This document shows positions 36,695 through 39,310 of a stretch of 64,000 nucleotides of DNA, in pieces. The notes beneath the pieces are model-generated. The model saw only the letters and a list, made by a program, of their open reading frames with translations, made no database searches and was not told where the DNA came from. This DNA is from Prochlorococcus sp. MIT 1300 (GTDB lineage: Bacteria > Cyanobacteriota > Cyanobacteriia > PCC-6307 > Cyanobiaceae). The translations under genes and the position numbers were made by a program. The number at the start of each line of letters is the position of its first letter. The first letter of the stretch is position 1. The stretch is taken from NCBI RefSeq assembly GCF_034092375.1, contig NZ_CP139302.1, positions 1,178,001-1,242,000 of the forward strand, read 5' to 3'.

Positions 36695-37801
36695 GTGTCT
36701 CTAATTAACAAGCTTATACGACCCTTTGCTGCTACTGGGTCACAGTGCATATGGCCAGGGCTGATAGAAGCCTATAGACCTTTTCTGCCGGTCTCTGAAA
36801 AAACCCCTGTTATCACTCTTCAAGAAGGGGCTACTCCATTGATTCCAGTTCAATCAATAGCCAATCGTATAGGTAGAGGCGTAAAAGTATTTGTGAAATA
36901 CGACGGATTGAATCCAACAGGATCTTTTAAAGATAGAGGAATGACAATGGCATTGAGCAAAGCTAAAGAAGAAAACTCTGAAGCAGTCATTTGTGCCAGC
37001 ACTGGAAACACCTCTGCATCAGCTGCTGCATATGCGAAAAGAGGTGGAATGAAAGCCTTTGTTTTAATACCTGATGGATACGTTGCTCAAGGGAAACTAG
37101 CTCAAGCACTTGTATATGGAGCAGAAGTTATCTCCATTAAAGGAAACTTTGACGCAGCATTAGAAATAGTGCAGAAAATGTCGGATCAATACCCAATTAC
37201 TCTAGTTAATTCTGTAAATCCATATCGGCTTCAAGGACAAAAAACTGCTGCTTTTGAAATTATTGATAGCCTTGGTGATGCACCTGATTGGCTATGTATT
37301 CCAATGGGGAATGCTGGCAATATAAGTGCTTACTGGATGGGTTTTAAAGAGTATTTTAAACATAAAAAAGCAAAAAAATTACCAAAAATGATGGGTTTTC
37401 AAGCAAGTGGTTCAGCACCTTTAGTCCAAAATAAAATAATAAAGGAGCCTGAAACGATTGCAACAGCAATAAGAATAGGCAATCCAGTTAATAGGGAGAA
37501 AGCTATTAACGCTAAAATTGAAAGCAAAGGTGAATTTCTTGCTGTTACTGATGAAGAAATCGTAGAAGCATACAAAATGCTAGCCTCTAAAGAAGGTATT
37601 TTTTGTGAGCCAGCAAGTGCTGCATCAGTCGCCGGATTGCTAAAAAGAAAAGACAATATTCCACTTAATTCTACTATTGTTTGTGTTTTGACGGGCAATG
37701 GATTAAAAGATCCAGATTGTGCTATTTCAAATAATGATGCTGTATTTCATATAAAAGTTGAAAATAATCTAGATGTTGTAGCTAAAACAATGGGATTTTA
37801 A
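36695..37801 (+). CDS. thrC: Threonine synthase
   Basis: PLP enzyme converting O-phosphohomoserine to threonine. 368 residues. The PLP lysine lies in [31 protein letters not shown] binds the phosphate and substrate, and [11 protein letters not shown] closes the family pattern. GTG start (36695). It is the last gene before the origin region, about 360 nt from the dnaN start codon. Confidence 0.95.
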
Positions 37802-38158
37802 GAAAAGACTAAAAAAATAAAGAATGTTAAGTTTCTCCTTGTAGAAAAACAATGTTTAAAGGTGTGGAAAATTAAGTACAAAGGAGTAAAAACTCAATAA
37901 ATTTTTTCCACAAATATTATTTTTTGTGGATAACAACTCTTAATCCACTTTCCTGAAAATATTTTCCACACCCAATAATTAACAAATGCCAGTGATTGAA
38001 AGGGATTAAGAGCTTTTCCACCGTTTCCACAAAACCTACTACTACTAAGGTTTTAATAGTTTTAAAATAAGAAAAGAATATAGAAGAAGAGAGACAGCTT
38101 GTTGATTCCATGGAAGAATGGGATTCCTTTCTCCTCGTTTAGTTGTTACCTTGACGAG
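37802..38158. other. Putative replication origin (oriC) upstream of dnaN
   Basis: A gene-free 357-nt stretch. DnaA-box matches: TTTTCCACA at 37904-37912 and 37962-37970 (+), its reverse complement at 37863-37871, TTATCCACA as reverse complement at 37925-37933 (an exact E. coli box), and one-mismatch boxes at 38014-38022 and 38023-38031. Four CTA triplets (38036-38047) follow the last two boxes, then a TTTTAATAGTTTTAAAAT segment. Strand composition changes here. dnaN-adjacent DnaA boxes mark origins in picocyanobacteria. It also must hold the dnaN promoter. Confidence 0.85.
38036..38047 (+). repeat. DnaA-trio-like element (CTA x4)
   Basis: Four tandem CTA triplets; the complementary strand reads 3'-GAT-5' four times. 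It lies 4 nt after two tandem DnaA boxes and just before an AT-rich run, the order known for DnaA-trio unwinding elements in Bacillus subtilis. Confidence 0.6.
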
Positions 38159-39310
38159 ATGAAACTAGTCTGCTCTCAGCTTGAACTGAATACAGCTCTT
38201 CAATTAGTCAATAGAGCTGTTGCAACTCGGCCAACGCATCCTGTACTGGCAAATGTACTTTTGACTGCGGATGCTGGTACTGGTCGTTTTAGCTTGACTG
38301 GATACGACTTGAATTTGGGCATTCAAACGTCTATCTCAGCTTCGGTAGAGGATAGTGGGGCTATAACTTTGCCTGCTCGTATTTTTGGAGAAATAGTGTC
38401 TAGGTTCCAATCTGATTCTCCTATAACCCTTTTGAGTGACTCTGATGGTGAGCAGGTTGAAATCACAAGTTTAAGTGGAAGTTATCAAATGCGTGGAATG
38501 AATGCTGATGATTTTCCTGATCTCCCTTTGGTGCAAAGCGGTACAACGTTTAAAGTTCATCCTAATTCCTTACTTAATTCTTTAAAAAGAACTCTTTTTG
38601 CAAGCAGTTCAGATGATGCTAAGCAACTTTTAACAGGTGTACACTTTACTTTTACTGATCATTCTATAGAAGCTGCTGCAACAGATGGCCATCGTTTAGC
38701 TGTATTAAGTTCCAGTGATGCTGTTTTGAATGAGACAGAACAAAATCAGTCGGATTCGTTTTCAGTTACTTTGCCCTCTAGGTCCCTTCGCGAAGTTGAA
38801 AGATTGATCTCCTCTTGGAAACCAAGTGAGCCAATTAGTTTATTTTGTGACAAAGGTCAGGTTGTTTTTCTCGTTGAAGATCAAGTAATTACTAGTCGAA
38901 CACTAGAAGGAAGCTATCCTAATTATTCACAGTTAATTCCAGATCAATTTAGTCGTAGTATTGAGATTGAGAGGTTAAACTTTATTTCTTCTTTAGAAAG
39001 AGTTGCTGTTTTGGCTGACCAACATAATAATGTTGTAAAACTTTCTACCGCTCCGGATCAAGGTCAGCTTCGTATTTCTGTCGATGCTCAGGATCTTGGT
39101 TCAGGATCTGAATCAATACCAGCTAATTTAAAAGGTGATTCTATTCAAATAGCTTTTAATGTTCGTTATGTTTTAGATGGTCTTAAATCTATGGATGATA
39201 AAATTGTTAAGCTAAATTTTAATGCTCCTACAACTCCAGCTGTCTTTAGCCCGGAATCTGATGAAGGTTCTTTCATGTACTTGGTTATGCCAGTTCAAGT
39301 AAGATCTTAA
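38159..39310 (+). CDS. dnaN: DNA polymerase III beta subunit (sliding clamp)
   Basis: Ring-shaped processivity clamp. The ATG at 38159 gives MKLVCSQLELNTALQLVNRAV, the standard start, and about 383 residues; the open frame begins at TTG 38099 but those 20 residues are leader. ATDGHRLAVL (domain II) and the C-terminal YLVMPVQVRS (clamp-loader and peptide groove region, MPVQ) are characteristic. It is the first gene right of the putative origin and starts a long + strand series. Confidence 0.97.
   Translation: MKLVCSQLELNTALQLVNRAVATRPTHPVLANVLLTADAGTGRFSLTGYDLNLGIQTSISASVEDSGAITLPARIFGEIVSRFQSDSPITLLSDSDGEQVEITSLSGSYQMRGMNADDFPDLPLVQSGTTFKVHPNSLLNSLKRTLFASSSDDAKQLLTGVHFTFTDHSIEAAATDGHRLAVLSSSDAVLNETEQNQSDSFSVTLPSRSLREVERLISSWKPSEPISLFCDKGQVVFLVEDQVITSRTLEGSYPNYSQLIPDQFSRSIEIERLNFISSLERVAVLADQHNNVVKLSTAPDQGQLRISVDAQDLGSGSESIPANLKGDSIQIAFNVRYVLDGLKSMDDKIVKLNFNAPTTPAVFSPESDEGSFMYLVMPVQVRS

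Follow-up and report, generated by a model that had tools for sequence, protein, structure and literature searches.

Putative DnaA-Trio Unwinding Element at the thrC–dnaN Candidate Origin of Prochlorococcus sp. MIT 1300 and Its Base Pattern in Cyanobiaceae

Organization of the thrC–dnaN Intergenic Region

The analyzed DNA is a stretch of 64,000 nucleotides from the genome of Prochlorococcus sp. MIT 1300 (hereafter, the window). It contains a candidate chromosomal origin, namely the intergenic stretch between thrC and dnaN, with the element of interest at 1.216 Mb of the genome. The left border is the threonine synthase gene thrC (36695–37801, + strand), recognized by its ORF and translation. 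The right border is dnaN, encoding the DNA polymerase III beta clamp (38159–39310, + strand), with an ATG at 38159 and the protein start MKLVCSQ that is common to relatives. Prochlorococcus origins with DnaA boxes were inferred earlier between threonine synthase and dnaN (PMC2836286), and the same left neighbour was noted there.

Four strict DnaA boxes were found in this region. The first, TTTTCCACA at 37863–37871 (− strand), has an offset of −151 from the unwinding module described below, and relatives carry − strand boxes at −152 to −155. The others are TTTTCCACA at 37904–37912 (+ strand, offset −110), TTATCCACA at 37925–37933 (− strand, offset −89) and TTTTCCACA at 37962–37970 (+ strand, offset −52). 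In relatives, the commonest offsets are −112 to −110 on the + strand and −92 to −89 on the − strand, and boxes also occur at −54 to −52. The motif TTWTCCACA is present 31 times in the genome and four times within 108 bp here, where 0.0018 copies are expected per 108 bp (P(≥4) ~4e-13).

Closer to dnaN, two boxes with one mismatch each, box A (TTTTCCACC, 38014–38022) and box B (GTTTCCACA, 38023–38031), directly abut each other on the + strand. They are followed by the 4-bp spacer AAAC (38032–38035) and by four consecutive DnaA-trios (38036–38047, − strand), which read 3'-GAT-5' on the − strand and CTA on the + strand and are located 112–123 bp upstream of the dnaN start. The run contains more than the three consecutive trios with a middle A required by the published search rule, and a box, in the preferred tandem form, lies 4 bp from the trios, within the limit of 16 bp. 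The run is the sole copy in the genome; CTACTACTACTA was found once in the whole genome (1,855,146 bp), at this origin. The trios are directly followed by an AT-rich stretch (38048–38080), the presumed unwinding region, with 84% A+T over 32 bp in the window; in relatives, A+T is 77% over the matching 30 bp vs. 52% and 44% in the flanks. A profile of the box-box-spacer-trio module, built without the MIT 1300 genome, scored 45.0 at 38014, not more than 5.0 elsewhere in the window and not more than 12.6 in a 760-kb sample of the remaining genome.

All coordinates given in the first-pass annotation for the exact boxes, the one-mismatch tandem boxes, AAAC, the four CTA triplets and the AT-rich run were confirmed. 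The Bacillus subtilis-like order proposed there was also found, with boxes, a short spacer, trios and AT-rich DNA on the dnaN side, except that the spacer AAAC is not GC-rich.

Position of the Chromosomal Origin

GC skew was evaluated in 38 samples of 20 kb across the 1,855,146-bp genome. Samples up to and including the one at 1.171 Mb had negative values, and those from 1.220 Mb onwards were mostly positive, so that the sign switch within 1.17–1.22 Mb brackets the element at 1.216 Mb. The opposite change was found near 0.25–0.5 Mb, roughly across the chromosome from the element. Within the window, the cumulative skew has its minimum at 34.3 kb.

Since dnaA is found 0.64 Mb away from the element, at the beginning of the record, it was considered that the true origin could lie elsewhere, for example at dnaA, and that the box cluster beside dnaN merely titrates DnaA. 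Box clusters may titrate DnaA, and some cyanobacteria replicate in a DnaA-independent manner. However, the skew switches at thrC–dnaN and not at dnaA, only one strict DnaA box was found within 3 kb of dnaA, and the module beside dnaN is kept across Cyanobiaceae. An origin elsewhere is therefore extremely unlikely. The probable oriC next to dnaN, as first annotated, is supported by the skew switch, the box cluster and the conserved module. These data allow us to conclude that the thrC–dnaN stretch is very probably oriC, with 38014–38080 as its basal unwinding module.

Conservation of the Module in Cyanobacteria

The regions upstream of dnaN were gathered via dnaN matches, which gave 185 Cyanobiaceae loci, 161 of them distinct. 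An alignment of such regions had been proposed in the first-pass annotation as a check on the box-box-trio order, and this order was kept in 159 of the 161 distinct origins. In these 159 origins the module is ungapped and box A keeps its position, followed by the abutting box B, a spacer of exactly 4 bp, four C-N-N triplets and AT-rich DNA. The spacer is GC-rich in most relatives (GCCC, GGCC), unlike AAAC in the window. In one of the two exceptions (L013), a contig start cuts the region and the module is partly visible. In the other (L185, genome G025), no recognizable box-trio module was found upstream of dnaN and the genome search gave no DnaA match; this could be a lineage that lost DnaA-dependent initiation, or an assembly gap.

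The strict boxes upstream of the module have counterparts at nearly the same offsets in relatives, where they are usually degenerate. Conservation is higher in the trios than in the boxes. Loss of the triplets with retention of the boxes, which would have spoken against the initial reading, was not observed; on the contrary, trios persist as boxes decay.

The tandem boxes of relatives show a separate feature: C often replaces A at position 7 of the two boxes (76 and 70 of the 159 origins), and the window has A. A C at this position is a mark of weak ATP-DnaA boxes in Escherichia coli, Caulobacter crescentus and Helicobacter pylori (PMC8235120). Initiation in those relatives may depend on ATP-DnaA.

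Outside Cyanobiaceae, the same module, often with the spacer GCCC, was found in about 12 of the 46 cyanobacteria examined. In the ten best outgroups, 28–34 of the 34 module positions matched vs. 16–21 in shuffled sequences. Many of the other cyanobacteria in this set do not have the module beside dnaN. This is in line with the published loss of DnaA dependence, some cyanobacteria being able to replicate without DnaA (PMC7198777).

Base Pattern of the Trios

The bases of 636 trios were counted on the trio strand. The first base was G in 629 of them (98.9%). The middle base was A in 429 (67%), C in 199 (31%), T in five and G in three trios, and 158 of the 159 first trios have A there. At the third position, T was counted 463 times, C 158 times, A 14 times and G once. 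The window's own trios are plain GAT, and the A/C pattern described here rests on relatives; for example, CTACGACGACGG is the natural trio scaffold of a GC-rich relative.

Since related origins are not independent, the changes were mapped by parsimony on a dnaN tree of 117 taxa. Four changes were found at the first base, and the first two bases of trio 1 did not change over the entire tree. The middle base changed 39 times, with 35.5 A<->C, one A<->T and no A<->G changes. At the third base there were 49 changes, 36 of them transitions; this base drifts by ordinary transitions and is free in each trio. At fourfold-degenerate dnaN sites on the same tree, A<->C accounted for 20% of the changes involving A. 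Compared with this value, about 35 of 36 such changes at the middle base correspond to P ~1e-23 if the changes are treated as independent. The number of middle C per origin rises with GC3 (Spearman 0.75). Apparently, GC pressure is accommodated by A to C changes and not by A to G, although the latter is usually easier. Taken together, the pattern suggests that every trio in Cyanobiaceae needs G in first place, followed by a base carrying an exocyclic amino group (A or C).

Under the published middle-A rule, 61 of 159 relatives pass at trios 1–3, and 153 of 159 pass once C is allowed; at this register, the published rule would miss 98 of 159 origins. Origins of GC-rich bacteria would be predicted better with a search rule of the form G-(A/C)-N.

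DnaA Base-Capture Residues and Proposed Mechanism

In the cryo-EM model of B. subtilis, capture involves the first two bases of a trio, G being held by Arg202 with Glu228 and A by Asn187 with Glu183; the third base points away (PMC10721633). Replacement of the middle A with C in B. subtilis left strand separation in vitro near the native rate, and in vivo, cells with a middle C grew faster and showed more initiation than those with G or T, the tolerance of C being credited by the authors to its amino group (PMC10721633). The residues E183, N187, I190, I193, R202, K222, E223 and E228 (B. subtilis numbering) are identical in the DnaA of the window genome and in 50 of 50 Cyanobiaceae DnaAs, 20 of which came from a set chosen as GC-rich. 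At position 196, where B. subtilis has an Asn that contacts the third base, Asp was found in 49 of the 50 proteins and in the DnaA of the window genome. Thus, an altered capture pocket does not account for the acceptance of a middle C. The base pattern of Cyanobiaceae fits the B. subtilis base-capture structure position by position.

In the course of the DnaA search, about a dozen weak extra DnaA-like matches over the same part of the query were noticed in one genome (G101), many of them in open frames of 305 aa. They resemble a multicopy ATPase that may belong to an insertion sequence.

The data support the assignment of the module as a DnaA-trio/BUS unwinding element, and a sequence of events can be proposed by analogy with B. 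subtilis and Synechococcus elongatus. The upstream strict boxes at fixed distances could serve as a loading platform for DnaA. DnaA would bind the two abutting boxes as duplex and nucleate a filament. Growing to the right on the − strand, this filament would capture G and A/C in every trio and melt the AT-rich DNA at 38048–38080 ahead of dnaN, and the helicase would then load.

It was also considered that the conserved CTA/CGA run could be a promoter or regulator site of dnaN instead of an unwinding element. The run lies 112–123 bp upstream of dnaN, and DnaA boxes are able to regulate genes. Nevertheless, relatives have a separate conserved promoter-like block (TTGCGC...TGTGAAAC, read by eye) in the DNA that separates the AT-rich stretch from dnaN, and the run itself is locked 4 bp from the tandem boxes, coincides with the skew switch and varies in the manner expected from base capture by DnaA. 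Such a regulatory role in place of unwinding is thus very unlikely.

Comparison with Known Unwinding Elements

The element resembles the B. subtilis BUS (DnaA-box 6/7, spacer, DnaA-trios, AT-rich DNA) in having two co-oriented boxes, a short spacer, the same trio strand and direction, G as the first base and AT-rich DNA beyond the trios; the DnaA contact residues are identical as well, except for Asp in place of Asn196. There are six trios in B. subtilis, whereas MIT 1300 has four, located beside dnaN at a large distance from dnaA. In addition, a middle C is frequent in relatives of MIT 1300, while in B. subtilis it was only made artificially (PMC10721633).

The oriC BUS of S. elongatus, a member of the same phylum, was described previously (PMC8287927). 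An S. elongatus-like genome analyzed here carries tandem TTTTCCACA boxes, the 4-bp spacer GCCC and CTATTACTACTG ahead of dnaN (TTTTCCACATTTTCCACA GCCC CTATTACTACTG). Its boxes are perfect and A occupies the middle of every trio, whereas picocyanobacteria have degenerate boxes and A/C middles. The trio element of H. pylori oriC2 also has a box plus trio order and a conserved middle base; the consensus drawn from B. subtilis and H. pylori is 5'-YTD-3', in which the middle T of the complementary strand is highly conserved (PMC8235120). Compared with this consensus, the Cyanobiaceae middle base on the complementary strand can also be G, and less variation is seen at the first base.

Of 2,070 origins, 85% were reported to contain BUS motifs, and strand separation by the DnaA of S. 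elongatus requires both boxes and trios in vitro (PMC8287927). The trio element is essential for initiation in vivo in B. subtilis and H. pylori (PMC10721633, PMC8287927). The DnaA-trio reading of the element is thus not new in kind. The first-pass annotation knew of no description for the genus, and likewise no description of trios in Prochlorococcus or Cyanobiaceae was found among the papers searched here; this novelty is nonetheless reduced by the published wide occurrence of BUS, the in vitro data on S. elongatus and the earlier inference of Prochlorococcus origins (PMC2836286). The variation pattern of the trios appears to be new: Pelliciari and colleagues suspected natural trios without a middle adenine (PMC8287927), and no report of natural middle-C trios was found in the main texts of the papers searched. 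The middle-C trios of Cyanobiaceae appear to be natural examples of this kind. The element would place the signal for the opening of replication in abundant marine picocyanobacteria, and the pattern offers an evolutionary test of the base-capture model, since selection over 117 taxa tolerates almost only A and C in the middle, the two bases that functioned with similar efficiency in vitro in the B. subtilis system.

Secondary Structure and Mirrored Elements of the AT-Rich Region

Long inverted repeats were observed 0–50 bp past the trios in some Synechococcus and related clades (L008, L186, L159, L157). On this basis, the AT-rich region could be assumed to work as an extruded hairpin (cruciform) with the trios in its stem, and the mean folding z-score is indeed −0.64 vs. 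−0.16 and −0.12 in neighbouring windows. However, the arms pair with their own partners no better than when GC-matched arms of other species are substituted (z −0.14 vs. −0.12 to +0.11 in controls), and the window's own sequence folds worse than its shuffles (z +0.7). With excess folding restricted to a few clades, arms without co-evolution and no hairpin in the window, this structure is not supported and has scarcely any probability.

Trio-like runs that face the main module were also noticed on the far side of the AT-rich region; in some genomes they are followed, after 4 bp, by a box. Two facing modules could therefore flank this region, the one on the − strand and a weaker mirrored box-spacer-trio on the + strand; in such a case, two DnaA filaments on opposite strands would open one region and load two helicases symmetrically. 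This arrangement is rather unlikely. The mirrored box-spacer-trio beats shuffles at p ≤ 0.05 in 30% of Cyanobiaceae members, which are not independent species, and mirrored boxes alone reach p ≤ 0.05 in just 14%. Trio-like runs are enriched on the mirrored side, and downstream control windows are similarly enriched. Mirror-like elements were found, for example, in three loci (L079, L072, L153) and in outgroups (L205, L227), and the window keeps just the trio-like run TAGAAGAAG (38081–38089, + strand) in the mirror orientation, with weak significance.
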